Positions 46-60,101 of a stretch of 64,000 nt of DNA are shown piece by piece. This stretch comes from Vairimorpha apis BRL 01. Taxonomy: Eukaryota; Microsporidia; Nosematidae. Made by a program: the position numbers and the translations under genes. The notes under the pieces are model-generated. The model made no database searches. It was given only the letters and a program-made list of their open reading frames with translations, and was not told where the DNA came from. Numbering within the stretch: position 1 is the stretch's first letter; each line of letters opens with the position of its first letter. The stretch lies in NCBI GenBank assembly GCA_000447185.1, contig KE647232.1:1-64000 (forward strand), given 5' to 3'.

Positions 46-2521
46 TTATACATTACTACTATTTTTATAATTTATCACTTTCGATATTAAAGTTCCTATA
101 TTGTCTAAAATTTCAATGACATTTTTTTTATCATTTTCATCAAACATTATCTTAATTTTATTTGCTTGAATCACGCATTCTTCATATTTAATTTTAATAT
201 CGTCTAATTTATCTGAAACAAAAACTAAAAAATTTTTAAAAGTCTCTTTGTCATATTCTAATGAATAAAAGATCTCTAAATTTTCTGAGTATTGAATAAT
301 AAAAAAATTTATTTTATCCTTTATTTTTGATAAATGTTCTTTTCTTACAAAATCTAAATATTTAAAATCTTTAATTAGATTTTCTATCATATTTTTATCA
401 TCTATACATTCCATTAAATATTTAAATAAATTATAATCATTCTGTCCTTTGTAATCAAAAAATAAATTTATACTAGATAGTTTAAAGCCAGACAATTTTT
501 TCGTTCTTCCCAAAAAATCAGAATTTATCATATTTCCTAAATCAAGTAACATTTTTAATAAAATTTTAATTTCTTCACTATTTATCAATTTTTCAAAAGT
601 GTATCTAAACTTATCTAATAATTCTTCCAATAAAAAAATTTCATCAAAAAATTTTCTTTCAAAAATTAAAATTTTTACAAGTTTATTAACTTCCGTTAAT
701 TTAGAAAATTTTAACATAGTTTTCTCTTCATAGCTTAATTTATCAAATTCACTTGTTGCTAACATATAAGCTTCTTCATAAGTTGGAAACATTCTTTCTA
801 AGTTCAATAAATCTTGTATAAAAATATTTTTTGAGTTATTTTTTAAAATGTTGTATATATTTTCTGACGTTATATGCTTTTTATTTAAATGTTTTAAAGC
901 TAATGAAACAAGAAATAAACGCTTTGAATCAATAATGTTGTTTACAGGTTTTAACTCATTTTGAAATTTCGCAACTTTTTCATTTAAAACACAAAAGTGT
1001 TTTTTAAATTTTTCTATATCATAGTTTATATTATATGAATCTAAATTTTTAAAAATTGTATTTTCACTAGACATTACAGGAACCCAATGTAATGGTCTTA
1101 TACTATGTATATTATTTAACTTAGAAATATTATTTTCAATATTCTTTTTTTTAAAAGAACCTTTTGTTTTTGTTTTTAATATTTGAGGTGGAATGTAAAT
1201 TTCATCTATTATTAAATCAATTTTTTTATTTCATTAGATTTAATATTTTTATAAAGTTCGATTTTTTTTATATAATCTTTAGCTGCACTTTCTTTATCAT
1301 TTTTTTCTTTATTTTCATATTTTATAGAATTTAATTTTTCTGGTTTTTTTTCTTGAATTAAATTTTTATAACCTTTTGCTTCTAAATTATTAACTAGTGA
1401 TTGACACTCTATTTCATTATAATTCATTTGTGCACAAAATTTTGCTATATGTCTATTATATCCAATTTGTATGAGTTTCTCAAATTGTTGTTTATCATTA
1501 GAATTTGTTATATAATTTGTTAATACTTCTATACCTAAAATTATATTTTTTTGAAACGGACAACATTCTTGGTATGAATACATTTTATTTATATCTAGAA
1601 GTACTATATCAAATTTAAAATCTTCATCAAAATATTTAAAATAGTTTGTTATTATATCTTCTTTGTTATATCTAAATAATCCTTGTTCATATAAAAAGCA
1701 GTTAAATGGAAATTCAAAAACTTTTAAATCATTAAAAAAAATAATAATATTTGCATCTCCTTCCAATTCAATCTTTAAATTAGTAAATATAATATAGAAT
1801 TGGTCTTTGTAAATGACATCATTATTATCAAATTCGTTTATAACAATTTTATTGTTTTTTTGATGAATTTCCAAAATGATTTTAAAATTTAGAAATTCTT
1901 TAATTTTAGGATAATTTGATATTATTAATTGATGTAATAGCAATATATCAAATTTGTGTGATTTTTTATAATTTACTAAATTAAAAAAATATGATTTAAA
2001 TCTTTTTATAGTTTCAATATCTGAAATTTTTTCTCTAAATATTTTTTTCTCTAACACAAAAATATTATCATTTTCTATTTTAGTAAAATACAAAATAAAA
2101 CATTCAATTATCAAAGTAAAAAATGATATCTTATTTAAATCTAATTCAACAATAACAAAATTATTGTTATTTATTTCAAACCAGGCTTCGACTGCATTAC
2201 AAAAATTTGAAATATTTTCACAATTAAATTCAAAATTTACAAGAAGAAAAAAATTTTGAAAAACTTTTGAATAATCTTTTGTTGAAATATACAAAGTTTC
2301 TTTTGATCCATTTTCGTTTATAAAATTTTTTACATCTTCAATATCATTTGTCAATGTATCAAAATCGGTTTTTTATTAGTTATAGGTCCTACTATAAAAA
2401 AATTTGATTTAATTTTCCACTTATTTAAACGTGAAATATTATTACTTATTGGGATAGTTTTAGTCTCGATGCGTTTTTCAAATATATTTTTACTATTGGA
2501 AATATTTTTAATTTTTTTCAA
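46..2521 (-). CDS. Formin with degenerate PTEN-like/C2 N-terminus and FH2 domain (frame-broken)
   Basis: Formins nucleate and elongate unbranched actin filaments through a dimeric FH2 domain. The FH2 part is read from about 1230 down to 46: it opens with the hallmark PLHW (codons at 1084-1095) and later has LLDLGNMINS followed by GFKLSSINLFFDYKG, the FH2 signature block. Upstream, 2354-1212 encodes a region resembling the inactive PTEN-like phosphatase plus C2 module of auxilin, tensin and plant class II formins: NDIEDVKNFI, then FCNAVEAWF, then a P-loop position reading VELDLNKIS that lacks the catalytic CX5R. The linker contains only a short IPPQ, so FH1 is almost absent. The parts lie in different frames: a -1 shift is needed in the T7 run at 1221-1227 and another in the T6 run at 2369-2374. 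A further open stretch reaches 2521, where an in-frame TAG (2522-2524) follows a possible ATG at 2566. The true start is unresolved. The FH2 call is strong, the PTEN-like call good; whether the gene is intact is uncertain. Confidence 0.8.
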
Positions 2522-2566
2522 CTATTTTTTGAGCTTTGGATTGTTCACATACAAATTTTTTGTCAT

Positions 2567-3528
2567 TTCAATAATCTCTTTTTTCTTTATTCATATAAAA
2601 AAAAGCTAATACATTTATACCAAATTTAAAACGTGTTTATAGGTGCAATTTGATTTGTAAGTTTAAATCATTAGTGTTTGAAACAAGAAATTATTTTTTA
2701 GCAGTAAAAATTATAAAATTATTTGTATAATAAATAAAAATTAAATATAAATTATTTTTCAATTTGAAAATATAATTAAAAATTACTAGTCAAATTAAAA
2801 AAAATTATCAAATACAAAAGTCTATTGTAATTTTATATTTTGCAATAAATTTAATTAAGTTTTAAAAATTATAAAATTAAAAACCATATTCATATGTTTA
2901 AGATTTATTTATTAATTATAATTTAGTTTTTCTTAAAACATATATTTGTTTTAAATTTTTTCAAAAAATTACATTTTTTAAATTTAATAAAATTTTTGTA
3001 TCTCGTTGAATATTTGATATCTAAAAATAATATATTTAAAATGATATAACAATGAAAAAAATTTAGTATTTTAATAACTTAAAGGCAATATTAATAAATT
3101 ATTGATCTTTTAAAAGTTATTTTTTAAAAAAACTTAATTATTTAAATAAAAATAGTATAGTAAAGCATAATATCACAAAATTAATATTTTTAAAATGTTT
3201 AAAAATTATAAGAAAAACATGTAAAACTATAATTTATTTTAAATGTTTTTAAAACATTTAGTTATTTTGATTTTTAAAAATTATATTAAGATGAAATTTT
3301 TTAGTTTCACAAATAATTTGATATTACAAGATTATTTTTTTAAAATGATTTAAATTTATAGATAATGAAATAAAAATAATTTAAATAATTAAAAATAATA
3401 TTTTCAAAAAAGTTAAAAGTGGTATTTTTTGATATTTAAAATGTTAAGTTAAAATATTTCTCAACCATTTAATATTTGTATATCTATTATAAAATATTGT
3501 AAATTTGAATTAACTTTTTTTACCCTAT
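2567..3528. other. AT-rich spacer
   Basis: Almost pure A/T with dense stops in all frames. It lies between the divergently transcribed formin and TAF6 genes and so probably holds both promoters. I see no RNA gene or repeat. The only clear signal is a CCC at 3523-3525 just before the TAF6 start. Confidence 0.6.
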
Positions 3529-4589
3529 ATGTTATTTTCACTTGATACATTGAAAATGTATGCACATTCTGTTGGAATTACAAATATAGATGATGATGCT
3601 TTAAGAGTATTATCGCAAGATCTTGAATATAGAATAAAAGAAATATGTCAAGAGGGAAGTAAATTTATGCTTGCTTCTAAAAGAAGTAAACTTAGCATAG
3701 ATGATATTAATTATGGTTTAATTAGTAGAAACGTAGATCCTTTGTTTGGATATGATCCACATGAGAACCTTGTTTTTAAAGGTTTACCATCTGGAATTTA
3801 CTATGTTCCAGATGAAGAAATTGATTTAGAAGAATTTTTAGAACGTCCTCTTCCAAAAATTCCACTTAATCCATCAATTCAGTCACATTGGCTAGCTATT
3901 GAAGGTGTTCAACCTCAAACAGCACAAAATCCTATTGTTATTGAAAAAATTGAACAAAAAAAGATACTTTATTGACATATCAAGAAGAAACAGAACTTAA
4001 AACACAAAATCGCCATATGCTTACAAAAGAACTGAGTATGTATTTTGAAAAAATAATACAAGCTATGGAAACAGAAGAAGATATAGCAATTGAATGTTTA
4101 AAGAACGAAAGTGGAATTCAACAATTAGTTCCATATTTTATACATCATTTTAATCAACAAATTATGAAAAATTTAAAAAATTCACCAAAATTAAAAACAG
4201 TACTTATGATGTACAATAGTTTGCTTAGAAATCAGTTTATTTTTATTGATGTTTATCTACATCAAGTATTACCTTCACTTTTAACTTGCGTTATTGGTAA
4301 ATATGTTGATGAATCAGTTAGATTTATTTCATCGGATGTTATAAAATATGTTTATCAAGAGTTTGCAAATAAATATAAAACTTTAGGACCACGTATAGTA
4401 AGAACTTTAGTAAAAACTTGGTTCGATAAAAATGCGGAAGAATGTGTGCATTTAGGAGCAATTCATTGTTTAAGTATTTTGTCAAAAGAAGTGATTAATA
4501 ATGTAATTAAACCAAAATTTGAAGTTTATAAAAAAGAGATCGGTTATAAAGGAGTAATCGAAAAAATTAATAATCTTTTACAATATTAA
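3529..4589 (+). CDS. TAF6: TFIID subunit TAF6 (histone-fold plus HEAT-like region), one frame break
   Basis: TAF6 is a histone-fold subunit of TFIID (and of SAGA in yeast). It pairs with TAF9 and contributes a HEAT-repeat scaffold to RNA polymerase II promoter recognition. The first ~70 residues form the histone fold (start MLFSLDTLKMYAHSVG, with SKRSKLSIDDINYGL further on), followed by the characteristic DPLFGYDPHENLVFK block of TAF6. From 3972 the second segment begins with KTQNRHMLTKELSMYFEKI and continues as the helical C-terminal domain. The segments are joined by restoring one base in the A7 run at 3956-3962, which removes the TGA at 3973-3975 and links EQKK to the KELSMYFEKI block as in other TAF6 proteins. 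CCC lies at 3523-3525, three bases before the ATG. Joined length is about 353 residues, shorter than yeast TAF6 (516). Identity is confident. Confidence 0.9.
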
Positions 4590-4856: not shown

Positions 4857-6242
4857 TTATGTTGTATCAGGAAACGAAAGTGGACCAAGTCCAGAACTCA
4901 TTAAACCTTTATAAAATTTGATTTTAAACAATTTTTCAATTTCTTCGTTTGTGTTAAATAAAGAACAATTAGGAAATTCATGCTTAAGTTCTAAAATATA
5001 AAAAATCATTTTAATTTCAGCATTTGTTTTAAATCCATTAATTTCACAATGTGTAAAAGACACATCATACCCTAAATTTTTAAAGCAGTCATCATATCTT
5101 TATTTTTATACAGCAAATTTTTAAGAATTTACTTAATTGAGAAACTTCATAATACCATATAGAATCAATTTCTTGACAAAGAAAACGCAATATGCCTATT
5201 AATCTTTTATCACTATAAATAGAATTTTCTTTTGTGTTTTGTTTAAATTTTTCATCATTAATTATTTTTTCAATAAATAAATTATTGTGTAATTTTTGTA
5301 TCCAAAATGGACCACAAATTTTCATTTTTTTATTACATATATAACATATGTTATGACAGTATTCGTCTGTTATAGAATTAGTTTTTTGCAAGAAATTTTT
5401 GATTTTTGATAAAATTTCTGATGATTCTTGTGTATTCCATTCAGGTTTAAATGTATTTAATTTATGTGTTAAACTTAAAGAATTTCCACATCTACATAAA
5501 TAAAATAGTCCACTGTTCTCAACAACTTTTTTTGGTGTTCGTTTTAATACTCTTACAAAAATTCTCAAATAAAAATCAATATTAAGAGATACAAGCGGTT
5601 CAATTGATATACCAAATTTAGCAGCATGTCTAGATATACAAGATAAAAGTGCTCTAATTGCCATTTCATTCTGTGAAAATTTCTTTAAAATAGTAGTTTC
5701 ATATTTTATTATGCATTTATTTTCATTTGAACACAAGACTCCCTTATCTGTACTTGTAAGACATAAAATTCCATTGTGTTTTATTGATCTAAAAGCATTT
5801 TCAATGTACTCTGAACAACTTCCAAAGGGATCAATATCAATTACATCAAAATAGTTGAGTAAAGAACACATTAATACATTACAATCTGAATTAATTATAT
5901 TTATTTTTGAAGAGTTATTTTGAACATCTTGAATATTAAAATTTTTGTTAATAACATTTACATTTGAAATTTCGTTTAATTTTAAATTTTCTTGAATACA
6001 ATTGATAGAATCTAAACTTATATCATTAAAAATTATTTTAACGTTAGGAATTTCTTTAAAATATCTAATACCTCTTAAACCTGTAGCAGACATTGCATCT
6101 AATATACGAATAGATTCTTTTGTTTTAAAATATTCAGAGATAACTAATACTGAAATATCTCTATTTGTTTTTTGTGCAGGATTATAGAAAGTTGATTTAC
6201 TTTTTTTATTTTCGCAGATCCTTCATTTATTAATTCAGACAT
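4857..6242 (-). CDS. TRM1: tRNA (guanine26-N2)-dimethyltransferase Trm1, three frame breaks
   Basis: Trm1 makes m2,2G26 in cytosolic (and in other fungi mitochondrial) tRNAs using S-adenosylmethionine. N-terminal block: MSELINEGSAKIK, then STFYNPAQ and NRDISVLVI, matching the family's EG..FYNP.Q.NRD start. The methyltransferase core has DAMSATGLRGIRY and later the DIDPFGS catalytic motif. A Cys pair block follows (FYLCRCGN and CHNICYIC), typical of the Trm1 zinc-binding region. The C-terminus contains GYDVSFTHCEINGFKTNA, the family's terminal THF..TG.KTDA element. Breaks: T7 at 6201-6207, T5 at 5103-5107 and T5 at 5077-5081; each needs one extra base and the protein then reads continuously. 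The start at 6242 is preceded by a sense-strand CCC (6250-6252). About 460 residues. Three breaks could also mean a decaying gene, but the conserved blocks themselves are clean. Confidence 0.88.
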
Positions 6243-11085: not shown

Positions 11086-11624
11086 CTAAACTAATTTTTG
11101 TTTCCTACAATCAGCACAATACCATAAATTTTTCGGAGGTAGAGTAATACCAACACAATCAAAATGGAACCATTGAATTTTACAACTAGGTTCCTCACAG
11201 GCTATCATGTTTTCACAAGCATATTGTCTGCATGTACAATATTTATTACCAAAAGATTTATTTTTCCCTACTTTTACTATTCTATTGATATTTTCTAAGT
11301 TAACATTTGGAATTACAATATCAAAACAATTTTTAGATATTATTTGTTTTGTTTTTGAAATAATTGGAGCAATAACATCATTAAATTTAAGAATCGATTT
11401 ATCATATTTTTTTTATATTTTTTAAATTTATATTGTAATTTCATAATTTCATTCTCATCAATTTGTTGTCCTTTTAAAGCTTTTTTTGTTAAAATATCGA
11501 TTTTATTTTTTATTTTTACATATTTTTTTTCAATTCTTTTATTTCGTTTATCTAAAATATAAACATCTAATGGAATTTGTTGAATATTTTCTATAACTTC
11601 ATCATAAGTGTCAAAAATTCCCAT
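11086..11624 (-). CDS. ING-family PHD-finger protein, one frame break
   Basis: ING proteins (yeast Yng1, Yng2, Pho23) are subunits of histone acetyltransferase or deacetylase complexes and bind methylated H3K4 through a C-terminal PHD finger. The N-terminal ING helical block is visible (MGIFDTYDEVIENIQQIPLDVY, then a lysine-rich coiled stretch). The PHD lies at 11089-11240 and is read in another frame: CTCRQYACENMIACEEPSC, IQWFHFDCVGIT and NLWYCADCR, giving the complete C4HC3 set plus the conserved WFHF..CVG. The -1 shift needed between them lies in the T8 run at 11407-11414, after which the linker is open throughout. A sense-strand CCC (11627-11629) lies two bases before the ATG. About 180 residues, shorter than fungal ING proteins. 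Which complex it serves cannot be told. Confidence 0.85.
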
Positions 11625-12456: not shown

Positions 12457-13076
12457 NNNNNNNNNNNNNNNNNNNNNNNNNNNNNNNNNNNNNNNNNNNN
12501 NNNNNNNNNNNNNNNNNNNNNNNNNNNNNNNNNNNNNNNNNNNNNNNNNNNNNNNNNNNNNNNNNNNNNNNNNNNNNNNNNNNNNNNNNNNNNNNNNNNN
12601 NNNNNNNNNNNNNNNNNNNNNNNNNNNNNNNNNNNNNNNNNNNNNNNNNNNNNNNNNNNNNNNNNNNNNNNNNNNNNNNNNNNNNNNNNNNNNNNNNNNN
12701 NNNNNNNNNNNNNNNNNNNNNNNNNNNNNNNNNNNNNNNNNNNNNNNNNNNNNNNNNNNNNNNNNNNNNNNNNNNNNNNNNNNNNNNNNNNNNNNNNNNN
12801 NNNNNNNNNNNNNNNNNNNNNNNNNNNNNNNNNNNNNNNNNNNNNNNNNNNNNNNNNNNNNNNNNNNNNNNNNNNNNNNNNNNNNNNNNNNNNNNNNNNN
12901 NNNNNNNNNNNNNNNNNNNNNNNNNNNNNNNNNNNNNNNNNNNNNNNNNNNNNNNNNNNNNNNNNNNNNNNNNNNNNNNNNNNNNNNNNNNNNNNNNNNN
13001 NNNNNNNNNNNNNNNNNNNNNNNNNNNNNNNNNNNNNNNNNNNNNNNNNNNNNNNNNNNNNNNNNNNNNNNNNNNN
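12457..13076. other. Assembly gap (620 N)
   Basis: A run of N only. Any reading frame drawn through it is artificial. Confidence 1.
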
Positions 13077-13119
13077 TAATTATTTATTTCAAATTTATTC
13101 TTATCGCTTTATTTGTTTA

Positions 13120-13215: not shown

Positions 13216-13680
13216 AATATTTTATTAAAAATTATAGATTTTTTATATGATTCTTTCAGTCAGTGTTATAGTTTCTATTCTATGTTTAGTGTAACATTTC
13301 TTCTCTTATTTCTCATGTTTTTCATACGATATTTACTTTTTTTACATTAATATACCAAACCTAATTAATTTGAAAGTTCATAAATTTTTAAATTTTTTTG
13401 ACTCGACTTGTTGTAAAATGTCAAATGAAAAAGCTCACTCTTCAAAATTAAGTCGTTTTAATTTCTTTTGTCAATTTTAAGTATATATATTTTCATCTTA
13501 TCTTAAAAAATCAAAAATTAATTTTATTATATTTATAAGCTAAAGCTTAAATAACAATTTACCATTTTTGATAAAATTTTTAGATTTTAATTAGAATAAT
13601 AATCAATACTAGCCTGTCCTGTTTTTATTTAATTTTTATCGAATTAAATTATTTATTTAGGGTATAATGGTATTTCAATT

Positions 13681-14115
13681 TTATTTTTTTAATATATCAT
13701 CACAAATAGATATAGGGCGATTTTCGCACATATTTGATTCCAAATTTTCTTTCTCAGTAACCTCCTGTTCATTTTCCATAATGACTTCGCCTCTTCGGGC
13801 TTCCATAGAAAGACTCTCTAAGGTCATCTTAAGCACTCTGGCTTGTATATATGCCTGGGTTCGGCTGTCTAAATTTAATTCACTCCTATATTTTTTGTGG
13901 AAAGTTGTTGTTATTCCCTCCCATGTCATGGAGTATGGTATAATCCTTGTTTTGTACCCATTCATTGCTCCACAATGGTTAGCAAGCAGATCGTATTTGT
14001 GCTTTTTTTCCGTTTCAACAGCCCGAAGGTTGTCAAAGCTTGTAATTCCTACCTCTACCATTAGTATTTCCTTTTTTATTTTATCCAGAATAAATACATC
14101 GGGTTTATTGAATTT
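13681..14115 (-). mobile_element. Non-LTR retrotransposon 3' end: restriction-like endonuclease domain
   Basis: An open frame with markedly higher G/C than its surroundings. It begins KPDVFILDK (about 14110), runs through ILMVEVGITSFDNLRAVETEKKHKYDLLANH, TRIIPYSMTWEG and YRSELNLDSRTQAYIQ, and ends in an acidic tail. The PD...E spacing (PDVF, then about 12 residues, then EVG) fits the PD-(D/E)XK restriction-like endonuclease at the C-terminus of R2/R4/CRE-type LINEs, which nicks target DNA to prime reverse transcription. It aligns nearly end to end with the copy at 51292-51690. No reverse transcriptase lies directly upstream, so this is a truncated, probably dead copy. It is the least decayed of the copies here. 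Confidence 0.7.
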
Positions 14116-14141
14116 TTATCGATATAATTTTTTTTCATAAT

Positions 14142-16996: not shown

Positions 16997-17271
16997 TTAT
17001 TGGTTAGTATATAAACCGCCAACTTGTGAAGCTGCCACTTCTAACTCATCTCCATCTTCCATATTTCTGAAATCTGGTGTTTCGTCTAGATTTAATACTT
17101 TACCATTAAATATTAATCTAAGTTCATTGGGATTTTTATGTACATTTTCTGCGTAAGTTTTTAATATTTTTCTAAATGTGATATTTTTTTTGACTTTAAA
17201 CTCAAGCTCTGATCCATCTTGGTCTTGAATTTTCAAATTTATTTTATCATTATTTTTTCATCTTGATCCAT
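16997..17271 (-). CDS. SMT3: SUMO (Smt3) precursor, one frame break near the N-terminus
   Basis: Small ubiquitin-like modifier, conjugated to lysines of nuclear proteins by the E1/Ubc9 pathway. The beta-grasp core is complete: KIQDQDGSELEFKVKK, then ITFRKILKTYAE, LRLIFNGKVLNLDETPDF and MEDGDELEVAASQVGG. The conjugating di-glycine is followed by LYTNQ, so the precursor must be trimmed by a SUMO protease. The ORF as read begins at a TTG. The real ATG is at 17269-17271 (MDQDEKNN...), reached by restoring one base in the T6 run at 17253-17258, which yields an INLKIQDQDGSE block typical of SUMO. A sense-strand CCC (17276-17278) sits four bases upstream of this ATG and supports it. Confidence 0.93.
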
Positions 17272-23957: not shown

Positions 23958-25113
23958 ATGTCAAATTTATTCGAAAACATAGATTCGGATACATATAAAA
24001 TTTGGAGAAAGAATGTTCCATATATGTATGATTTAATGTATTCTTATACACTTGAATGGCCTTCATTATCTGTTCAATACTTTCCAGATGTTAATAGAGA
24101 TGAAAAAAGAGAAAAAACTTTTCAACGATTATTAATTAGTACCAATACAAGTAATAAAGATCAAGAATATATACATATTGCATCGATAGAATATCCGGAT
24201 ACATACGATGAAGATTTAAGTGAAGGATGCATTGGCGATATGAAACTAAAATTTATTCNNNNNNNNNNNNNNNNNNNNNNNNNNNNNNNNNNNNNNNNNN
24301 NNNNNNNNNNNNNNNNNNNNNNNNNNNNNNNNNNNNNNNNNNNNNNNNNNNNNNNNNNNNNNNNNNNNNNNNNNNNNNNNNNNNNNNNNNNNNNNNNNNN
24401 NNNNNNNNNNNNNNNNNNNNNNNNNNNNNNNNNNNNNNNNNNNNNNNNNNNNNNNNNNNNNNNNNNNNNNNNNNNNNNNNNNNNNNNNNNNNNNNNNNNN
24501 NNNNNNNNNNNNNNNNNNNNNNNNNNNNNNNNNNNNNNNNNNNNNNNNNNNNNNNNNNNNNNNNNNNNNNNNNNNNNNNNNNNNNNNNNNNNNNNNNNNN
24601 NNNNNNNNNNNNNNNNNNNNNNNNNNNNNNNNNNNNNNNNNNNNNNNNNNNNNNNNNNNNNNNNNNNNNNNNNNNNNNNNNNNNNNNNNNNNNNNNNNNN
24701 NNNNNNNNNNNNNNNNNNNNNNNNNNNNNNNNNNNNNNNNNNNNNNNNNNNNNNNNNNNNNNNNNNNNNNNNNNNNNNNNNNNNNNNNNNNNNNNNNNNN
24801 NNNNNNNNNNNNNNNNNNNNNNNNNNNNNNNNNNNNNNNNNNNNNNNNNNNNNNNNNNNNNNNNNNNNNNNNNNNNNNNNNNNNNNNNNNNNNNNNNNNN
24901 NNNNNNNNNNNNNNNNNNNNNNNNNNNNNNNNNNNNGAATTTGAAGAAAATCCACCTGAACTTGTGTTTTTACATGGAGGTCATACAAACAACGTTTTTG
25001 ATTTAGATTGGAATCCAGCAGAACCACTTGAAATTATTGGTGTAGATGAAGATAATACGTTACAAATTTGGCAAATTCCAGAACTTAAAAATAATGAAAA
25101 CATTTATAATTAA
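23958..25113 (+). CDS. RbAp48/Msi1-Hat2 family WD40 histone chaperone, interrupted by an assembly gap
   Basis: This family binds histone H4 and serves in CAF-1, Hat1, Rpd3 and related complexes. Before the gap the protein reads [18 protein letters not shown], then [13 protein letters not shown], the invariant N-terminal block of RbAp46/48, Msi1 and Hat2. After the gap (24937 on) it reads [22 protein letters not shown], then LQIWQIPE, the equally invariant C-terminal end of the same family. The middle WD repeats lie in the 678 N bases at 24259-24936. Total span corresponds to about 385 codons if the gap size is right, a normal length. CCCC at 23940-23943. Whether this is the Msi1, Hat2 or a shared paralogue cannot be decided. 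Confidence 0.92.
24259..24936. other. Assembly gap (678 N)
   Basis: A run of N inside the Msi1-type gene. Frames that cross it on either strand are artificial. Confidence 1.
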
Positions 25114-25541: not shown

Positions 25542-26347
25542 ATGAATAAAAAAAATTTCTTTACAATTGATGATTTTATATTAGGAAAGCCATTGGGACG
25601 TGGTAAATTTGGTGAAGTATGGATGGCTAAAGAAAAACATAAAGGTTATATAGTTGCTTTAAAAATAATAAAAAGAAGTTCTGTTGTAACTAAAGAAACA
25701 GCTAAACAAATAAGAAGAGAAATAGAAATTCATAAAAAACTTAAACATGAAAATATTTTACGAATGTATGGTTTTTTTATGATTCTGAACGATTATATTT
25801 AATTTTAGAATATGCTGGCAAAGGTGAATTTTTTAAAATACTTAATAATAAAAAATTTAGCGAACAAACAACATCTATTTATATCAAACAACTAATAGAT
25901 GCACTTATTTACATGCATAATAATGATGTTATTCACAGGGACATTAAACCAGAAAATTTGATTCTAGGATGTGATAATAAATTAAAGTTAGCAGATTTTG
26001 GTTGGGCGGTAAAAAATAATGATAAAAAAAGAACTACTTTTTGTGGTACATTAGAATATTTAAGTCCTGAAATGTTAAATAATCAAGTTCATGATCATAA
26101 TATAGATGTATGGTGCTTGGGAATTTTAACTTATGAATTTTTAACTGGTAAGCCACCATTTGATATTAAACCAAGATCTTTGAGAGAAGCTAAAAGAAAA
26201 ATTATAAATTGTGATTTGACAAAACCTGATGATATGAGTACAATATCTTTTAATTTTATTGAATCGTTAGTTGTAAATGAAAAAGACAAAAGAATATGTT
26301 TAAAAAAAGCTCTTAAACAACCATTTATTGTTAAATATAATAAGTAA
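25542..26347 (+). CDS. IPL1: Aurora/Ipl1 protein kinase, one frame break
   Basis: Aurora kinase, the catalytic subunit of the chromosomal passenger complex, controls kinetochore attachment and cytokinesis. Motifs: glycine loop LGRGKFGEVW (residues 17-26), VALKIIKRS with the ATP-anchoring lysine, HENILRMYGFF, HRDIKPENLILG, DFGW (the Trp after DFG is Aurora-specific) and the activation loop RTTFCGTLEYLSPEM with the phosphorylated-threonine position. As assembled, the first part ends early at 25802. Adding one T to the T7 run at 25772-25778 gives GFF followed by YDSERLYLILEYAGKGE, exactly the expected sequence, and continues in the frame of the second part. The protein (~268 residues) is little more than the kinase domain; the N-terminal extension of fungal Aurora is missing. 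CCC at 25536-25538. Confidence 0.93.
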
Positions 26348-27864: not shown

Positions 27865-28460
27865 TTAAATCAATTTCTTATTTTTAAAGAATTTTCTCAT
27901 ATTTTGAAGTAAATAAATTTGAACGCCGATATACGAAATTAAAGTAGCTAAACTCAATATAATAGAAAAGACAAACATTTTCTTATTTTCGATGCCTACA
28001 TGCTCTAATGAATAGGCAAGCTCTTCGGTTTTTATATTTGCCTCGTGCAATAAATTGTTAAGTTTTGTTAATGTATAAGTAGCTGGTTCAACACGAACTT
28101 GCTTAGCTACACTTTTATTAAATGTATCAAATTTTGTTTCAAATAATAATTCTAATTCTGATTTTTTATAATTATTATTTTTATCGGGATTAAACAAAAT
28201 TTCACAATATAAATCTTTATTGTCAGAGACATTAAATGCAAAAGGTGTATGATTTTTTAAATTTAATGCCTCAAAAAATAAACCTCCATCTTCTGATCTT
28301 ATTTTAACATCAAAAAACCCTTCATTACTATTCAATGGTTTAAAGAAACCTTGGCATATTTGTTCACCAGTTACATCAAAAACAATCGTCCGTTTTGTTA
28401 CATTTTTGTCAAACATATAAATTTCGCATAAACATGAATAAAAAAATAAAAAGAAATCAT
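27865..28460 (-). CDS. p24/emp24 (TMED) family cargo receptor, one frame break
   Basis: p24 proteins cycle between ER and Golgi and sort cargo, including GPI-anchored proteins, into COPII and COPI vesicles. The GOLD-like luminal domain runs from TIVFDVTGEQICQGFF to ELLFETKFDT. A coiled stretch (LTKLNNLLHEANIKTEELAY) leads to one membrane segment (FVFSIILSLATLISYIGVQIYLL) and the tail MRKFFKNKKLI, with the FF and dilysine-type signals of this family. A longer frame starts at 28512, but a better start is the ATG at 28458-28460. It has a sense-strand CCCC four bases upstream (28464-28467) and, after restoring one base in the A7 run at 28440-28446, gives a normal short signal peptide (MISFYFFYSCLC). 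Same secretory theme as GPI12 and SND2 nearby. Confidence 0.88.
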
Positions 28461-31240: not shown

Positions 31241-31249
31241 AATATGGAC

Positions 31250-37384: not shown

Positions 37385-38364
<980 letters not shown>

Positions 38365-38765: not shown

Positions 38766-40171
38766 ATGGAGCAAGAAATTGATGAATTATTTGAAAACGA
38801 TGATGGAAATTTTTCTGAAAAATCTATAGACAATTTAGATACATCTATTTCAAATATAAAAAAATATTACCTTATCTTAATTTAATAAAAGATCATATTT
38901 CTTCTATTGATGTAAATTTTGATTTATATCATGTAAAGTTAGATCGTTTGGCCAACGAAATAAATGACATTGAAGCAGAAAATACAAAATTAGAGAATGA
39001 AATTTTATATCAAAAACAAATTTATTCGAAGCTTAAAGAATTGCTTATAAATTTAGAAATAAAAGAAGATCACTTTATTAATTTAGAAACCGAATCTTTC
39101 GATACATCTGAAGGTATTACAAAAATAGAACAATCACTTGATGTATTGAATAGTTTTAATATTGAAAATTATACTATTAGGGTAGTTAAAGAAAAAAAGA
39201 ACGTGTTGTTCAAAGTATAATAAAATTTTATAACAGATTTATGATCTTATACAAATTACAATTTAAAAGTTTTGATGAATTCAGAGTCCATAATTATGTT
39301 TATGATAAACTAAATAAATTTAAAAAGATCATAAATCTATGTAAATCATTTTGTGAAAAAAACAATTTAAAAATATTTGAAAGTATTTTTATGATTTATA
39401 TTAAATTTTCAAAAAATGAATATGAAAATCAAATGAAAAATTTTTTAAAAATTTAAAATTAGCAAATATTGATTTAAAAAAAGCATTACTTGATCCTTAC
39501 AAAACAATCATAAAAATTGAAGAAAACTTTATGGAAAAAATATTTTTAGAAAAAAAATCAATAGAAATTTTTCAAATTTCAAATGAATTAATTGTTAAAT
39601 TTTTTGAAGAGGTTTTTAAACAAAAAAAGATTGAAATTATTATTTTTTAAACGAAAATATAAAAACAAAAGAAGATAATGTTTTTGGAGATTTACAAAAT
39701 TCACTGAAATCATTATTAGGTAAATTAAAAAAATATTTTTTGCAAGAAGAAGCAGAATATAAAAATAAAGATGAAGGTTTAACAAGATTAGAAAAATATT
39801 TAAAAATAAGTAATATTTCTGACCTAAATAGTTTACTTATAAGAATAAATTTTTATAGGATCAAAAACAATAAAGATAAAGATAATATTTATGAAGCCGT
39901 TAATAATAAAAGAAGACTATTTAAAATTAAAAAATTTTGTAGTAATCTTGATGAATATCAAAATATTGTTAAAGAAATAGATGATAATTTTGCAAGACAT
40001 GTAATCGATTTTATTTTAGAAACTGATCATCCAGTTAGTCAAACAAAAAAACTTTTTCAATTTATTACAGGGCAAGAACAGTTTGTAAAAAATTTAAAAG
40101 AAGATATATATGAAATTATTGAAGATAATTTAAGCGATAAAGAAAAAAATGAAATTAGTAAATTTATGTAA
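38766..40171 (+). CDS. SEC3: Exocyst Sec3-like protein, four frame breaks
   Basis: Sec3 marks exocytic sites and tethers secretory vesicles to the plasma membrane. The ATG at 38766 has CCC at 38756-38758. With one base restored in each of four A/T runs (near 38860-38866, 39190-39196, 39441-39450 and 39641-39649) a single ~468-residue protein results. Its coiled-coil region KLDRLANEINDIEAENTKLE, then KLKELLINLEIKEDHF and SEGITKIEQSLDVLNSF, matches the core of the Sec3 C-terminal family (..L..LL.TL.L.EE....LE....EGL..IE.AL..L). This is followed by RVVKEKKERVVQSI, equivalent to (M)R.V.EK..E......F. The C-terminal helical rods end at SDKEKNEISKFM. It lacks the N-terminal PH domain and is much shorter than fungal Sec3. 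Another exocyst rod subunit is the alternative. With four breaks, a decaying gene is also possible. Confidence 0.6.
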
Positions 40172-41653: not shown

Positions 41654-43740
41654 ATGACAGACCCAAATGAGACTATGTTAAGAATTTTAGAAACTAAAGT
41701 AAATATGGTGGAAGGAAAAGAACAAGAAAGTATTAAATATAAGATTGAAAAATTAAAACAAATTTTACAAGGAACTGAAAGTAAATGTATGATCACAACA
41801 GCAAAAGTAGTATCCAAAGAAAATTTAGATCTCAAATTAAATAAAGAAAATAATTTGTTACAAGGTTATCGCAGGATAAAGGCTGCAGAACATAGTTTAA
41901 ATGATTGTATGATAAAAAAAATTGATTTTTGTAAAATTAAATTATTAATGTACGAAAAAGAATATAGGTCAGAAGAAAACAATATATTGTATAATGGAAA
42001 GTTTGAAAAAACAACAGGAAGTGTTGTTTTTCAAATAAAAGGTTTTGAATTTGATCCTATATTTGAAATTGAAAGTTTACACTTTTATATTGATTTAAAA
42101 TTAAAGTTAATTGTATCTATTCAAAATATAAATGAATTTGAAGTTACTTTTGAAGATTCAAGTGAATTGGAAATTTTTTTATTTGGAAAAAATGAGATAA
42201 TACTTGGTACAATTTTATTACCTTGCGAATTTTTTACAGAAAAAAATGATATTATTGTAGAAATGGATTTTAGGAATTTTAATTATATTAAATTCAAGAT
42301 CAATTTTAAACAAGAAATTGGATTAATAAGGAAAAATGCTATAATTACGTGTGTTTATAAAAATGGACATGGGTTAGAATCACTGCCCACTTTTACTCCA
42401 AAAATTTGTGGTGTATGTACAAATTTCATAACTATTTTCTCATCTCATTACAAATGTTTTAGATGTCTATTTACTTGTCATAAAAAATGTATCGGATTAA
42501 TTTTATTTTTTTGTAAAAATTCAACGATAACTGTAAAAACCGAAGAATTTAAAATTCAATATGATATTCCACATAAATTAATAGAAGTTGAATTAGGTAG
42601 TTTTTATTATTGCAATCATTGTGGTGAAAATATAAATTCTAAAAAAGCTTTATTATGCACAGAATGCGAAGTTAAATTTCATATAGATTGTGAAAAATAT
42701 ATTTTTAACTCATGTAAAATGTATATTGAATTGAGGAAAAAAATGGCAGAATTTAAACCAAAACATTTTAAATTAGATATTTCAGAACAAACTATAAAAA
42801 TTGAAGATTTTAAAATTATTAAAACAATAGGAAAAGGATCCTTTGGAAAAATTTTCTTAACAAAATATAAAGATTATGATTTTGTAGCTTTAAAAGTAGT
42901 CCAAAAAAAAAATTTGCAATTCGTATATGATTTAAAATATTTAAATACAGAAAGAAAAGTATTAAATTTGAATAAGCAATTTAATCATCCATTTTTAAAT
43001 CATCTTTTTTTTGTTTTCAAGATGATACGAGATTTTATTTTGGGTTAGAATATTTACCATCAGGTGATCTATTATATCAAGTTGTTCATGGAAAATTAAC
43101 TTGTGAACAAATTAAAATATATGCATGTGAAATATTACTTGGAATAGAATTTCTACACAATCAAAATATAATTTATAGAGATCTTAAACTTGATAATATT
43201 CTTTTAGGTAATGATGGACATATTAAAATATGTGATTTTGGTTTATGTAAAGAATTTATTGAAACTAATATGAGGACACATACATTTTGTGGAACTCCAG
43301 ATACAATGGCTCCTGAAATTATCAAATGTGAAGGATATACTAATTCTGTTGATTGGTGGTCTTATGGAATAGTATTATATGAAATGTATACAAAGTCTCC
43401 ACCTTTTTTAGGGTCAACTAATCGTGAAATTTACGAAAATATAACTCATTCAGAACCTATTTATCCATCAAGTTTATCTTATGAAAGTGTAGATTTGATA
43501 AAAAAATTATTATTAAAAAACCCAGAAGCTAGGCTTGGAAGTGGAGAAAATGGAATTAAAAATATTAAGGATCATTTCTATTTTAAAGACGTGAAATGGG
43601 ATGATATATATAACAAAAAAGGAGGAAATATAATAATTTTGCCAATGAAATATGAGAATAATATATTTGATGAGGTAGATAGTTTTAATTGTTTACAAAA
43701 AGATGATGAAGTTGATGACTATTTTGTAAATTTCCAATAA
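41654..43740 (+). CDS. PKC1: Pkc1-like protein kinase C (HR1, C2-like, two C1, kinase), one frame break
   Basis: Fungal-type Pkc1 transmits Rho1/cell-wall-stress signals. Domains in order: HR1-like coiled coil (residues ~1-80, LRILETKVNMVEGKEQESIKY through NNLLQGYRRIKAAEHS), a C2-like beta domain (~95-215), two C1 zinc fingers (~236-287, CGVCTNFITIFSSHYKC..C..CHKKC; ~305-352, CNHCGENINSKKALLCTEC..FHIDC) and an AGC kinase domain (IGKGSFGKIFLTKY, VALKVV, YRDLKLDNILLG, DFGLCKEF, THTFCGTPDTMAPE). The activation-loop sequence is the PKC type. One base is missing in the T8 run at 43005-43012; restoring it gives HPFLNHLFFCFQDDTRFYFGLEY. The C-terminal hydrophobic motif (F..F(S/T)Y) is not visible: the protein ends VDDYFVNFQ. 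Length ~695 against 1151 in yeast. Confidence 0.93.
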
Positions 43741-44713: not shown

Positions 44714-45522
44714 TTAAACAGCATCATAAGATTTATTTGTGTATCTACAATATGGACATTTTGAAGACTGCTCACACAGCCATTTATCTACACATTTTTG
44801 ATGAAAATAATGATTACAAAATAGTATTCGTATATCATCTTCATCATTATATACGTCAAAACAAATTAAGCATGAATCAGAATCTTTTATAACAATGTCT
44901 TTATATTTTACAAGTTTAAATCTTCTAAGTTCATATTCTGTAATAATAGGATTTATTGTTGAATATATACAGCATATTAAATAGAATATTATAATTACAC
45001 ATGTTGTAATCATTGTCAAACTAAAAAAAACAATTATTAGATAAAAAGTTGAAACTTTAAACCGCTTTTCAAAAACTATTCTAAATGGTATATTTTGAAC
45101 TATTATATGTTTTAATATTTCGCTTATTTGTTCATCTAATAAAAAAAACTATATGGTTCTGTTATCGTGCATAAGGAATTGAAGTTATTTTGTAAAACTT
45201 TTTCTTTAGGAATATCATTATTAGATAGATAAAATATGTTAATTGAAGTATGAAGTGATAAAAATACATCTTCAATTGAAACATCAGGACTAATAAAAAT
45301 AGCAACTTTTTCAGGAAATTGATTAAATTTGTAAGTTTGTTGAATAGAATTGATTTTAGTATTATCTATATAATATATTTCGCTTATATCACGTTTATAT
45401 TTTCCTCCGTAAATACAGTTTAATTTTATTCCGTTTAAACATCCTACAGACGATTCAAAGAATGCAACACCATCTAAAGACATTTTCCAAATTAAATATC
45501 TAAAAATGTTAATAAGATTCAT
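44714..45522 (-). CDS. Membrane-anchored RING-H2 E3 ubiquitin ligase (RNF13/GRAIL-like layout), one frame break
   Basis: A ~268-residue protein assembled from two frames. One base must be restored in the A8 run at 45141-45148, which turns EPYSFFY-stop into EPYSFFLLDEQISEIL. The N-terminal ~150 residues (from MNLINIFRYL) would be luminal and contain short beta-like stretches (EKVAIFISPD, INIFYLSNN) that could be a reduced PA domain. A long hydrophobic stretch follows (FYLIIVFFSL, then CVIIIFYLICCIY), and then the cytosolic RING-H2: CLIC, then CNHYFHQKC, then CPYC, the complete C3H2C3 set. This order (luminal domain, membrane, RING) is that of endosomal/ER ligases such as RNF13. No CCC before the ATG. 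RING identity is certain; the PA comparison is inference. Confidence 0.82.
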
Positions 45523-47083: not shown

Positions 47084-47103
47084 NNNNNNNNNNNNNNNNN
47101 NNN
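47084..47103. other. Assembly gap (20 N, fixed size)
   Basis: Exactly 20 N between the two near-identical copies: a placeholder gap, not a measured one. Confidence 1.
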
Positions 47104-50533: not shown

Positions 50534-51291
50534 TTTGATGTCAAATATATATATAGAATTATAAAATTTTTTTAAAATTTTTTAAAAACTTAAACAAGTT
50601 TTTTTTGTTTTGAAAAAATAAAAATTACTGTTAAATTAATTATGTGATTATTTAATATTTTGAAAATTTTTTTAGTTTTTTATTTCTAAAGTTTGGTTTT
50701 AATATTTTATCAATATGAAATAAGATTATTTAAATAGTTTTTTATGCAAATAATATAATTAGATTTTATTAAAGAAAGATAAATATATTTTTTAATTCTT
50801 CTGTTTTTTAGCTTTTAAATATTAAATAATAAGTAAAAATATAATACAACTAAATATAAAATATAAACAAGGAAATTAAAAATTTTTGGTTTTAATTATC
50901 AATTTAAAAATTTATCCTTATGTTTATTTAAAAAAATTTAATAACTTAAAATTAAACAGAAACATTCTACAATCATAATATATTAAAATTTTAATATACT
51001 ACAATAAAATGTTTAAAAGATATATTTATTGAGATGATATATTTTTATTAAAGAAACAGAATACTATGTTCAAATATATATTTCTCTGTTAAGTTTTCAA
51101 ATTTTTGTAAATAAAAACAGAAAAAAATATAGAACTTATATTATATTTTGTTTAATTTTCTTCTTTAATACTGTACTTTTTTGTTTCACTTATTTTATAC
51201 TATCAAATTGCATAATAAAAAATTATATATAATGAATAAAATTATTTATTTAAGGGTTAATTTCATTACTTTATTATTTTTCGCTTCCGCA
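50534..51291. other. AT-rich spacer
   Basis: No gene recognised before the LINE fragment. Confidence 0.6.
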
Positions 51292-51690
51292 TCAAACGAG
51301 TTCACTTAGATGTACGTTTTCGTTCCTCTCGCTTTCCGCTAATATTAAGTCTCCTCCTCTTCTGTACTCCAACGACACACTCTCTAAAGTTTTCTTTAGA
51401 GTAACTGATTGGATATACGCTTCGATTCGGTCCGAGATTTCTAGAGCATTTCTGTATTTTGCGTGGTATTTAGTGACTATACCATCCCATGTTAGCATAT
51501 ATGGAATTATCCTTGTTTTACACCCGTGTATAAATCCTAACTCATTAGCTAAAAGATCGTAATTTCTTAATTTTTCTGTCTCTACTTGTTGAAGGTTGTC
51601 AATAGATGTGACACCTATTTCAACTATAAGAATATCTTTAGATTTCTTATCTATTACCACAATGTCTGGTTTATATAAAAAATTATATAT
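51292..51690 (-). mobile_element. Non-LTR retrotransposon 3' end: restriction-like endonuclease domain
   Basis: Open frame of clearly higher G/C than its neighbours, reading KPDIVVIDKKSKDILIVEIG, then TSIDNLQQVETEKLRNYDLLANELG, CKTRIIPYMLTWDGIVTKYH and TLKKTLESVSLEYRRGG. The PD plus downstream E (IVEIG) arrangement fits the PD-(D/E)XK endonuclease tail of R2/R4/CRE-type LINEs. It stops at 51292 shortly after HLSELV. No reverse transcriptase is attached upstream, where AT-rich spacer resumes. The conserved frame makes it one of the youngest fragments here. Confidence 0.72.
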
Positions 51691-51895
51691 AATTATGTAT
51701 ATATTAAAATAATTAATTTTTTAATTTTATATGATTTAAGATATAAAAAAGTTTTTTTGGATAAATAACAAAATATATAAATTTAATATTTAATCTTATA
51801 AATTTTAATTATATATATTATTTTATATTTTAAAATAAATGGATGAATTTTATACAAAAAAATATCATATTTTTTATTTATATATAATATATATT

Positions 51896-54579: not shown

Positions 54580-55500
54580 AAATTTATACACAACCAATCT
54601 CGGGAAGTTATACAAAGATAGAACACACGGACGCTTAAGTATCGGAATCTTCTACTTGGTTGATAAGGACAAAATTCAAGTTAAATCGGAAGCATTGTAT
54701 TGCATCGCACATGATAAGAATATATTCTGTAAATCACACAGGAAGACTCTCAACCATCTATTTACTAAGTACGATCGAATGTTAGATCATGATTACACAG
54801 AAAAGACAATAAAGTAGTGATGTGTTTACATCTTTTTCTGTGCATTAAATATGGATTTGAAAAAGCAAAAAAATCTGATGTTACTCTGTTTAGGAATCAT
54901 AGAAAATGATCTAGCAGAGATACAAATAGATACCAAAATTGATACGATATTAAGGTTAGTTATAATAATCTTGATATTCTTGTTTTTGACAAGAAAGGGA
55001 AAGAAAACCTTATAGTAAATTTTGGAATAACAACTTGGATCGACTTTCAATAATCGAAAATGAAAAACTTTTGAAATATGACCTTTTTGCAAATGAACTT
55101 GAAGCAAACCATAAATCTCGAACAAAGATAGTTCCCTATGTAATGACATAGGATGGAAAGATAACAATAACCACAGGAAGCACATCAGAGAGCTAGAAAT
55201 TAAACCTTTCCTAGAAACATACATTCTGTCTATAATACTTAAAAAGATCTTAGAATCTATTTCAATAAACGAAGACGAAGTTATCATTAGAAGAAATTCC
55301 AATGAAGATGAGAGAGCAAAGAATATTGAGAAGCAAGTACGGTCTGTTTAGTTTAGTGAAGTGTCGAAAAAACATAAAAAGATAAATATAATGGAAGCAA
55401 AATATGTGCCTGTAATTAATCCCATAGTATCTGAAAATTTAAGGTTCTTATAACTACCCAAGCTGAAGTGGAAGCTGATGAAATTAAAGAGTAAAAATGT
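54580..55500 (+). mobile_element. Decayed LINE 3' end: HHCC-type finger plus endonuclease
   Basis: The longest retroelement remnant. The + strand reads RTHGRLSIGIFYLVDKDKIQ, then SEALYCIAHDKNIFCKS, HRKTLNHLFTKYDRMLDHDYT, and after a stop DLKKQKN...LGIIENDLAEIQIDTK. This is the region between reverse transcriptase and endonuclease in R2/R4/CRE-type elements, including remains of the Cys/His finger (C.., then TL.H.F...DRML). After shifts it continues LDRLSIIENEKLLKYDLFANELEANHKSRTKIVPYVMT-stop-DGK, the endonuclease core. At least four stops or shifts: a dead copy. G/C is far above the surroundings. Confidence 0.72.
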
Positions 55501-56421
55501 CAGTATAACTCATTAAACTATTATAATTAAATATATAAAATTTAATACAGTGAGATTGTATATTTTAATATAGTTAAATAATTAAAATACTTTACATACT
55601 TTTTTATATAATACAAAATTTAAAACGCATAATTGCATGCTCCTTAATTGTTTATAATTTTATTTAAAATGATATTTAAAATGATATTTATATTATTTAC
55701 AATATTTTATTAGTTATTTATAGAAAATAATGTATAATAATGTAAATTATCATAATTTCATAATATTTTATTTAAAAAAGTTAATATAGAATATTGTCAT
55801 TAATTTTGAAAATATCGACTAATATTAAATTCTTTTTAAAATTAATTTTTATTAATTTATTTTTCAAATTTTTTTAATAATAAAAACAATTATATTTCTA
55901 AATTTTAATATAACTAATTTTTTGGAATTTTAAAATGAAATTTTTTTAATTTTACAGAGTATAATTTACAAAAATAACCTGAGTATTAGCTTAGAATGAT
56001 AAGTTTTTAAAAAAATATAATATTATATAAGTATTTTAAATAAAAATTTACAATAAGAATTTTTAAAAAATATAAATGCTATATGGATTAAAGAATTTTA
56101 AAAAATAATTTTTTTATGTTTTTATTGAGCATATTAATATTATTTAAATTATTTTTATTTGTTTACTTTTTAATTTAATTTATTTAAAAAATCAATTTTT
56201 AAATAATCACATAATTAATGTTATATTACATATATATCACATAAATAATAAGTATACTAATTTTAAAACAAAAATTTAATTAATCAAACATTATTAATAT
56301 AACAAAAAAAATAAATGCATATAAAAATTCAATTTTCTTTTACTACACCATATTTTAAACATTATATTTTTTTGTTTATTTATTTTTTCTTCTATAAAAA
56401 AAATAATTTGTTTACTCTTAA
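55501..56421. other. AT-rich spacer
   Basis: About 900 bp with nothing recognised. Confidence 0.6.
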
Positions 56422-59400
56422 ATGGTCGTATCAAATTCAAATAATTATACGCAGATGACACCAATGCTAATAAAAGGTTCAGTAAACCATAAACCAGTAG
56501 AAATTTTAGAATTAAATAATTGTCAGGCAGTTGTAGGTACAGCGGAAAATTTCAGGTTTTTAGTATTAATGTTAATTAGTAATAACATTGAAAGTGCTTA
56601 TATATTCGGTTTTTGTGGAAATAATGCAGTGTATATAATTGATAGGCATGGAAGATTTATGATATATGACGAAAATAATTGTGTTTCTGAGTATGCATTT
56701 GGAATCCCAAGAAATTGTGTTATTAATTACAATAATCCTAATAGTTTTAACAGAAGTAACTTTTTAGAATACACAATGTGTAATAATAATGTAAATAATT
56801 ATACAAATTTACAATATCATGATAGTAATTTAGTAATTAATAATTCAATTAATTATAATTCCTCTAACTTTAGTAATAACGATAATTCATTTAATAATGT
56901 TGAAAATATGAAAAATGTTTATAAAAATGAATCTTATAATTTTATTACAAAAGTTAATGAAAATGCAGTAAATGAAACTTATAAATTAAATCATACATCA
57001 AAAACTAATTTAAACGATGATATTATTAGAAATTATGACAATCAAATGTTTGAGCAACCTGTCGAGGAATGTATTAGTGAAAATATGGCAGAATTAATAG
57101 AGATGATTGAAAAATGGTCCATAAAAGGAAACGATATTGATGACGTTAATAATAATATATTAAATGAAAATACTTGTACATATAAAATCGAAAATAAAAC
57201 AAATAGACTAAATGTATATCAGATCGGTAAATATATTTATGATAATTCTCCAGATTACAATGAGTATAACATTTCAGAAAATCTTAAAGAATTAATTTTG
57301 TTGTTAGATAAATGTGATTTAAAAAAATGTGAAAGTAATATCATTAATGAAAACGAAGAAATTAAAATTTCGAATAATTTAGAAAATTTAATTACAGATA
57401 ATAACAATGAAATACAGAATATTCCTTATTCACAAATAAGTTTACCATACAATTCTACAAGCGAAACAATTTCTTATGATCAAGAACCATATTCACAAAT
57501 ATTACCCCAACATACATACATATCAACAAATTTATCTAATGCCACATCAACCGAAAATATTCCTAATGATATAACCTTTAACTTACCTGTATTGTATATT
57601 GACCCATATACAACATTAATAAGACACCAAGGAAGATCTACAAGACGTCCTATGAGATATCAAAGTTATCATGATCCAATGAATTGTAGTTGTGCTGAAT
57701 GTGGGATAATAATTAACAGAACTAATAAACATATGTTAAGACGTTCTATAATCAGAAAAAAATCATTAAGAAAAAACTTAAACCAACAAAAAAATTTCAA
57801 TGTAGAAAAAAATTTTATACAAAACTTCCATTAAATAATAACTCTATAATACAAAATTTCAACAATAATAACTATAATAATAATGAGTCTACTGTTAACT
57901 TGACTGTTTTAAAAAATAATTTTATTGAATCCAATGTAAATGTATCTGATTTGAATATTAGAAATTATAATGAGTCTACTGTAAATGAGACTGTTTTAAA
58001 AAATAATTTTAACGAATCTAATGTAAATGTATCTGAATTGAATAATCATAATTATAACGATTCTACAGTAAATGAGACTGAATCAAATGAATCTTCTATT
58101 AGTGAGCCTGCGGCCAGTGAATATTCATCTAGTGAGACTACAGCCAGTGAAACCACCAGTGGTGACTCTTCGGATGATGATTCTTCTGTTAACGAAATAA
58201 CTGAAAAAAATGAAGCAATTATAAGAGATAATGAAACTGAATCATTTGCAAATAACAATATTATACCAGAAAGTTCTAGTACGAATTATAACAATGAAAC
58301 TACAAATGACTCTTGTTTTTCATCTGAAAATTTACCTACTTCATCTACAATTCCACAACAAAAGAAATTGGTCTGTACAGGACAAAAAGGTTGTCCATGT
58401 GAATCTTGTTCTTCTAAACTTCCTAATTCTAAATTTTCATTTACAGATAAATCACAAATAAAAAACAATATAGATATAAATAATATAATAAAAGATTCTA
58501 GCGATGTTAATGATAATAAAAATCAGAAAATTGATTTAAAAAATACTGGAAATAATAATTTTTTTGAAAAAGCGTGTACAAATAAAAATAATGATAAAAT
58601 CATTAATCCATTATATAATTATACAAAAATATCAACAGCATCTACGAATATAGAAGAACAAAAATCTTTTAGTCCGATTATACAAACACCTCTACCTTTA
58701 AATTCTTCATTTTCAATATGTCAAAAACAACCACAAGAATCCAGTACCAACTTTCATCAACAAACAGACTCTTCTATTAGTAAAAAGCAATATGATGATT
58801 TTTTAACATTAAAACAACGCAAAGAAGGTAATTTTAAAAATGATTTACTATCTAAAACAACTAATAGTGATGATAATAAAATCTGTACAAGAAATAAAGA
58901 ATTAAATGACAATGAAAACAATTTAATTGATTATGATTTGGATGAAGAAACAATCGATGACGTTGATAGGGAAAAAAAATCATCTTATTTAAGTAGTTCT
59001 AAAAGAAAATTTAAAAGAAAATCTTTTTCTATTTCATCAAGATATAGAAAAAACCTATACGAAAATCATTTTTACATAAAAAAAAGAAAATAATTTCAAG
59101 AAAAACCGTTGTAGAAAAATTTATAACAACAATTCTTTACAACAATCATGTCCTCCAGGTTGTTCATGTGATTTATGTATTTCTATGCTTTTCTTTAAGT
59201 TTCAACATATTAATAAAAATAATTTAAAAGAAAATTTCAATACTTTTTCTTTGGAAGATATTAGACGATGGTATAACAATTTATCTTTTGTAGAGTTTAG
59301 TGAAAAACCTGAACAAAATCAAGTAGTTGATGAAGATGTAATAAATGAAAATTCTGAACAGAATGAGGATAAAGATTTGTCAAATAAAGACTCAGAACAA

Positions 59401-60101
59401 AACTTAGTTATAGATAAAGATACAGTAAATGAAAATTCTGAACAGAATGAGGATAAAGATTTGTCAAATGAAAACTCAGACCAAAACTTAGTTATAGATA
59501 AAGATACAGTAAATGAAAATTCTGAACAGAATGAGGATAAAGATTTGTCAAATGAAAACTCAGACCAAAACTTAGTTTTAGATAAAGATACTGTAAATGA
59601 AAATTTAGATAATAATGAAGCTATTGATAAAGACATAATGATGGATTACTATTTTGAACTTGTTAACCCTATTAAAAGAAAGATTGATGATATAATAGAA
59701 TATGAAAAATGGTTCAAATTTGAAGAACATAAAAAATTTTATGAAGGAATTAAATTCTTAAGAAATGATAAATCTATTACATCAAATGAATTATGTGATA
59801 ATCTAAATAATCTCAAAATATCTAATAATCTATCAGTGTCTAGATACAAAAAAAGAGCATTATTACACGAAAAATATAAGAAACGAAAAACAGAAGATTT
59901 TTATACAAATTCAAAAATACAGAATATTCATCATTCATATTAGAAATATTTAATACAATTCTATACACACAGAAAGATGCTTTTACTGATAACATAGACT
60001 CTAAAAAGCGTAAATATAAAGATTTTAAACGTATGTTATTAATTCAAAATGCACAACCTGCACCATTACATCCAAATTATGTACCAAAAAAAATATTTTA
60101 A
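56422..60101 (+). CDS. Large Asn-rich repeat protein with three CxCxxC motifs, unrecognised, four frame breaks
   Basis: Three long open frames (56422-57834, 57900-59093, 59185-59943) and a short last part become one protein of ~1226 residues when one base is restored in each of the A7 at 57806-57812, the A8 at 59078-59085, the A5 at 59101-59105 and the A5 at 59913-59917. Only the first ~100 residues look globular (MLIKGSVNHKPVEILELNN, FRFLVLMLISNNIESAY, IFGFCGNNAVYIIDRHGRF). The rest is Asn/Ser/Glu-rich. Three similar Cys blocks are spread along it: NCSCAECG (about residue 430), CTGQKGCPCESCSS and CPPGCSCDLC. Basic segments occur after the first two (KHMLRRSIIRKKSLRKN; SSKRKFKRKSFSI). There are two sets of tandem repeats. 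No signal peptide or membrane segment, so probably intracellular, perhaps nuclear and metal-binding; function unknown. Upstream there is only CTC, not CCC, before the ATG. Confidence 0.55.
57882..58055 (+). repeat. Tandem 87-bp (29-residue) coding repeat, two full units plus partial third
   Basis: Units at 57882-57968 and 57969-58055, with a third beginning at 58056. Each encodes NESTVNxTVLKNNFxESNVN and a VS-LN-NY end. The frame is maintained within the repeat, so it expanded as coding sequence. It lies in the Asn-rich middle of the large protein. Confidence 0.9.
59344..59595 (+). repeat. Tandem 84-bp (28-residue) coding repeat, three units plus partial fourth
   Basis: Units at 59344-59427, 59428-59511 and 59512-59595, then a partial one from 59596. 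Each encodes NENSEQNEDKDLSN, then (S/D)QNLV(I/L)DKDTV. The second and third are almost identical, so the expansion is recent. The block is strongly acidic. Confidence 0.93.

Follow-up and report, generated by a model that had tools for sequence, protein, structure and literature searches.

The DNA analysed here, a stretch of 64,000 nucleotides that we call the window, raises the question of why so many of its reading frames break off and resume one base out of step at runs of A or T. An earlier note on this sequence had counted more than 20 such breaks in about half of the genes, each one a base short, and had set homopolymer undercalling against correction by RNA-polymerase slippage. Our analysis indicates that the assembly almost certainly carries the breaks and the organism does not. 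We have next to no doubt that they are consensus length errors in A/T runs (homopolymer miscalls) of 454 pyrosequencing, and that the genes themselves are whole.

Frame breaks in the window

We call a break short when one base is missing from the run (the common sign) and extra when there is one base too many (the opposite sign). A frame-finding HMM, which set an equal price on a missing and an extra base and was trained on the same sequence that it decoded, called 21 short and 6 extra breaks in the window, and 17 short and 5 extra at a stricter setting. Of the breaks planted as a test, it recovered 57 of 60 short and 58 of 60 extra ones, equally well for both signs. A frame-preference filter left 15 short and 2 extra calls in 11 of the 30 genes that encode 100 aa or more, although it was picked after the unfiltered and log-odds-filtered counts had been seen, which makes the filtered ratios soft; the log-odds filter proved overly strict, leaving 2 short calls and 1 extra call in the window and 1 short call in the sample from other contigs. 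Some HMM event, artefact calls included, was present in 17 of 33 genes of at least 50 aa, so that "about half" is roughly borne out, as is the number of breaks.

The same holds for their siting. An A/T run of at least six bases lay inside the possible break interval for 18 of 20 short calls, against 5.6 expected, and none of 5,000 random draws reached that figure. All 11 runs that the earlier note had located proved to be pure A or pure T, 5 to 8 bases long and correctly positioned; ten are given with the genes below, and the other belongs to a putative p24 gene (28440-28446). The broken genes are as follows.

46..2594, minus strand: formin (FH2 domain); six breaks, two short and four extra at the gene start (2515-2585); FH2 Pfam match, intact same-species copy and frame-aware alignment
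3529..4589, plus strand: TAF6; one break at an A run (3956-3962); TAF and TAF6_C Pfam matches in two frames, HMM short at both settings
4857..6242, minus strand: Trm1 (tRNA dimethyltransferase); three short breaks (6201-6207, 5103-5107, 5077-5081); Pfam TRM in two frames, intact same-species copy and alignments
11086..11624, minus strand: PHD-finger gene (ING-like, ING being the earlier label); one break (11407-11414); HMM short at both settings
16997..17271, minus strand: SUMO; break near the start (17253-17258); Rad60-SLD and ubiquitin Pfam matches, HMM short at both settings
25542..26347, plus strand: protein kinase (Aurora being the earlier label); one break (25772-25778); Pkinase matches in two frames, HMM short
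37385..38364, plus strand: GAPDH; one break (37943-37949); Gp_dh_C match split over two frames, intact same-species copy and alignment
38766..40171, plus strand: Sec3-like gene; four short breaks called; Sec3_CC Pfam match on one fragment, HMM at both settings and after filtering
41654..43740, plus strand: C1-domain kinase (PKC-like); one break (43005-43012); C1_1 and Pkinase matches, HMM short
44714..45522, minus strand: RING-finger gene; one break (45141-45148), called at one of the two HMM settings; zf-RING_2 match
56422..60101, plus strand: Asn-rich gene; three breaks called by the HMM, two short and one either extra or two short

In Trm1, GAPDH and the two kinases, Pfam matches switch frame and carry on. 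The breaks in the TAF6, ING-like, SUMO, Sec3-like, RING-finger and Asn-rich genes were called from frame statistics, helped by partial Pfam matches, and not from a same-species copy. Among these, the SUMO break lies too near the gene end for the frame-preference filter, the PHD match of the ING-like gene is weak (E 0.0012, below the cut-off), and the Asn-rich gene has no Pfam match at E 0.001. The putative p24 gene received no HMM call at its run, and its p24 match is also weak (E 0.0057, below Pfam's cut-off). Within formin (46-2594), a PTEN_C2-like stretch precedes FH2 (E 7e-05, below Pfam's cut-off), and three relatives have both domains in their precomputed Pfam lists.

Other features of the window are of a different kind. 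The stretch 54780-55360 is coding-like, with a GC content of about 0.3 and stops in all frames of both strands; it resembles a gene or mobile element in decay, in contrast to the clean single-base breaks, and one of the 15 filtered short calls in the window (55119) falls in it. Two GC-rich islands (13661-14137 and 51254-51720, GC 0.32-0.38) have open frames on both strands; their minus-strand frames gave no Pfam match over the cut-off, and the islands no Rfam match. Runs of N at 12457-13076 (620), 24259-24936 (678) and 47084-47103 (20) are perhaps scaffold gaps. The window as a whole has no Rfam match at gathering score and no tRNA. It covers bases 1-64,000 of a contig (C140) whose length is probably 65,112 bases, in a genome sequence of 5.96 Mb and 223 contigs.

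Intact copies of the broken genes and the sign of the errors

For three of the genes, public sequence holds full-length same-species copies: GAPDH (P0001, 326 aa, 16 contigs, the longest 15,522 bases), Trm1 (P0121, 462 aa, 11 contigs, the longest 27,359 bases) and formin (P0241, 848 aa, 10 contigs, the longest 27,359 bases). They are near-identical to the window on either side of every break, align to it without any intron, and lack the breaks in all three cases. Frame-aware alignment gave one length difference in GAPDH, three in Trm1 and six in formin, i.e., ten one-base length differences against three amino-acid differences over 1,636 residues, and an A/T run of 3 to 7 bases adjoins all ten. 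Events called only by the formin relatives P0242 and P0243 (46-48% identity) and end effects in the GAPDH relatives and the Trm1 relative P0123 (73%) were not counted. P0123, which comes from a public contig, points to a close and as yet undescribed relative of the species; the nearest named relative is Vairimorpha necatrix (72% identity in GAPDH, 58% in Trm1).

These numbers bear on whether the broken genes are true pseudogenes or reflect run-length polymorphism between isolates. The intact copies do stem from other data sets, possibly from other isolates, which leaves some room for such a reading. However, the excess of length differences over amino-acid differences, together with the fact that about half of the genes are hit and that these are otherwise conserved housekeeping genes, makes it very unlikely. 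Relaxed constraint, with substitutions and in-frame stops beside the indels, was not seen in the three genes.

According to the slippage alternative, the run lengths are real in the DNA, and some of the mRNA regains its frame when RNA polymerase slips on A/T runs. The AT-rich genome of an intracellular organism, in which genes that are otherwise conserved are broken at A/T runs, is a setting that suits it, and eight genes of Blochmannia vafer offer a model (PMC3017870). As described there, the Blochmannia and Buchnera cases share with ours single-base indels within poly(A/T) tracts of genes that are intact apart from them, but they concern eight genes in one genome, with some frameshifts conserved between species, whereas here the breaks reach about half of the genes, both signs occur and same-species DNA contigs are intact. 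Since Trm1 and formin are neighboring genes and both list a longest contig of 27,359 bases, this would be a single genomic contig and can hardly represent transcripts; judging by the size of the contigs, the intact frames of these two genes appear to sit in accurately sequenced genomic DNA. An intact frame in genomic DNA would leave nothing for polymerase slippage to correct, and the slippage alternative thus fails for GAPDH, Trm1 and formin, whose intact frames apparently lie in DNA contigs of up to 27 kb. Some genes would moreover need at least three corrections. The earlier remark that breaks in runs of five bases fit slippage less well was sound: two of the three Trm1 breaks, at runs of five, are real by alignment and count against slippage. 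We consider it extremely unlikely as an explanation of the breaks.

The sign of the errors is where the earlier description went too far. Every break had been said to need an added base, and the two common-sign breaks described for formin are indeed there, but alignment to the intact copy revealed four further errors of the opposite sign within 2515-2585 that had been missed. The ten aligned events in the three genes are therefore six of the common and four of the opposite sign, the latter clustered at the start of formin, a cluster that the HMM misread as one extra and one short break. The six extra HMM calls in the window fall in this formin stretch, at the window edge, in an N gap, in Trm1, at 54992 and at 59079. 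The Trm1 call is really two short events by alignment, the one at 54992 lies in the decayed sequence, and the one at 59079, in the Asn-rich gene, could instead be two short events. Shortfalls dominate, and the rule is not absolute: a strictly uniform sign is ruled out by formin and, less firmly, by a chaperonin gene on another contig (C193), which probably has one opposite-sign event among four, judged by eye from a chaperonin motif. An opposite-sign change in the chaperonin gene of contig C152 was discarded, since it reads better as two common-sign breaks.

In Euplotes, frames are changed by programmed ribosomal frameshifting, and a similar system would account for many genes changing frame at A/T-rich sites. 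We regard it as practically negligible here, given that in the three genes compared the same-species proteins are encoded without breaks and that both signs occur. Slippage, ribosomal frameshifting and pseudogenes are all rejected as general explanations. It is likewise highly improbable that in genes lacking a same-species comparison, such as the Sec3-like and Asn-rich genes, some breaks are real and read through by slippage; to our knowledge, such slippage would be the first in a eukaryotic nuclear genome.

A/T run lengths and the other contigs

Homopolymer miscalls should not be confined to genes, and the lengths of the A/T runs point the same way. The chance that a run extends by one more base is 0.47-0.50 at lengths 2 to 6 and drops to 0.37, 0.22 and 0.12 at lengths 7, 8 and 9, and no A/T run in the window exceeds 10 bases. 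Compared with a simple geometric expectation, used in place of an accurately sequenced AT-rich microsporidian genome, runs of at least 10 bases numbered 2 against 28.6 in noncoding and 1 against 9.0 in coding sequence. In 52.6 kb from other contigs, there were 2 against 21.7 expected, one of them a run of 11. Noncoding DNA has the cut-off as well, which suggests that it stems from the data rather than from selection acting on genes, and this is another point against polymerase slippage.

The breaks themselves are also found outside the window. In eight stretches of other contigs (52.6 kb), the filtered HMM called 21 short and 4 extra breaks, with 13 of 23 genes broken (16 short and 3 extra in 12 of 23 genes at the stricter setting); without the filter, and with sequence ends and repeats counted in, the calls rose to 30 short and 20 extra across 38 genes. 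Seven chaperonin (CCT) genes were examined from 13 matches; two were whole and five split, the latter with 8 short and 1 extra HMM calls. A kinase search returned four adjacent split pairs, one on C12, one on C95 and two within the window; arithmetic on their coordinates gives each the common sign. In contrast, genes matching PF00227, PF00133, PF00012, PF00152 and PF00004 were mostly unbroken, with a candidate split on C173, so the breaks are unevenly spread over the genome.

454 pyrosequencing and the annotation of the genome

In pyrosequencing, the light signal of a homopolymer run gives its length only roughly. Applied to a very AT-rich (about 81%) microsporidian genome, the method would miscount A/T runs, usually with too few bases and at times with too many, and with about 15x depth and consensus calling, such errors would not be averaged out. 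The source is most likely the published Nosema apis (Vairimorpha apis) assembly, for which one 454 Titanium paired-end library, about 15x coverage in non-repeat contigs and Celera Assembler 6.1 are reported, with a GC content of 18.78% and 8.5 Mb in 554 scaffolds (PMC3726280, which gives SRA067788 for the 454 reads); the base counts of the window give 18.8% GC. From this we infer that 454 chemistry caused the breaks, and direct support for run-length errors comes from the intact same-species proteins of three genes, the run-length cut-off, the location at A/T runs and the breaks in other contigs. The earlier reading of homopolymer miscalls is therefore upheld by the intact copies, the cut-off and the likely 454 source, but uniform undercalling is too narrow a description of errors that go both ways.

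Published 454 data match this picture in part. A GS 20 benchmark on plastid genomes, as reported in PMC1564139, had an error rate of 0.037%, made up of one-base changes in A/T runs, often of at least five bases, with hardly any substitutions, and its errors were partly grouped in neighboring runs, which fits the formin cluster. However, insertions there outnumbered deletions (78.8% against 21.2%) and errors were rare, whereas in this 81% AT sequence errors are far commoner and shortfalls dominate. The excess of shortfalls is not what that benchmark would predict and counts against the 454 explanation. An open full-text literature query on 454 Titanium errors gave no match. A closer parallel is the 454 assembly of the related Nosema ceranae, where homopolymer runs are named as error-prone and where, in 58 cases, neighboring ORFs can be merged if a frameshift error of one base is assumed (PMC2685015), although 58 cases among 2,614 genes are a far smaller share than in the window.

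The N. apis forward primer of that paper matches the genome exactly, which favors N. apis or a very close isolate as the source. Its site occurs twice on one contig (C70, L011), 923 bp apart, maybe as a repeated or misassembled piece of rDNA. Against this source, the two primers of the paper lie about 1.2 kb apart in the genome, compared with the 269 bp stated in PMC3726280.

The breaks are an ordinary data artefact with no new biology, but they call for caution when the N. apis assembly is used. Introns were predicted in 612 of its 2,771 genes (22%), described as "inserted in random places" with a loose splice consensus, from gene prediction by GeneMark.hmm-ES and Augustus (PMC3726280). A later survey inferred that N. 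apis and N. bombycis gained introns secondarily and stated that confirmation is needed (PMC8476143). In the passages returned from open full-text literature on Nosema apis introns, frameshifts and microsporidian annotation, none linked the introns to frame breaks. With about every second gene broken, gene finders that allow for introns would tend to span the breaks with spurious ones, and the introns reported for N. apis may be partly artefacts of these breaks, a possibility that we rank as likelier than slippage.
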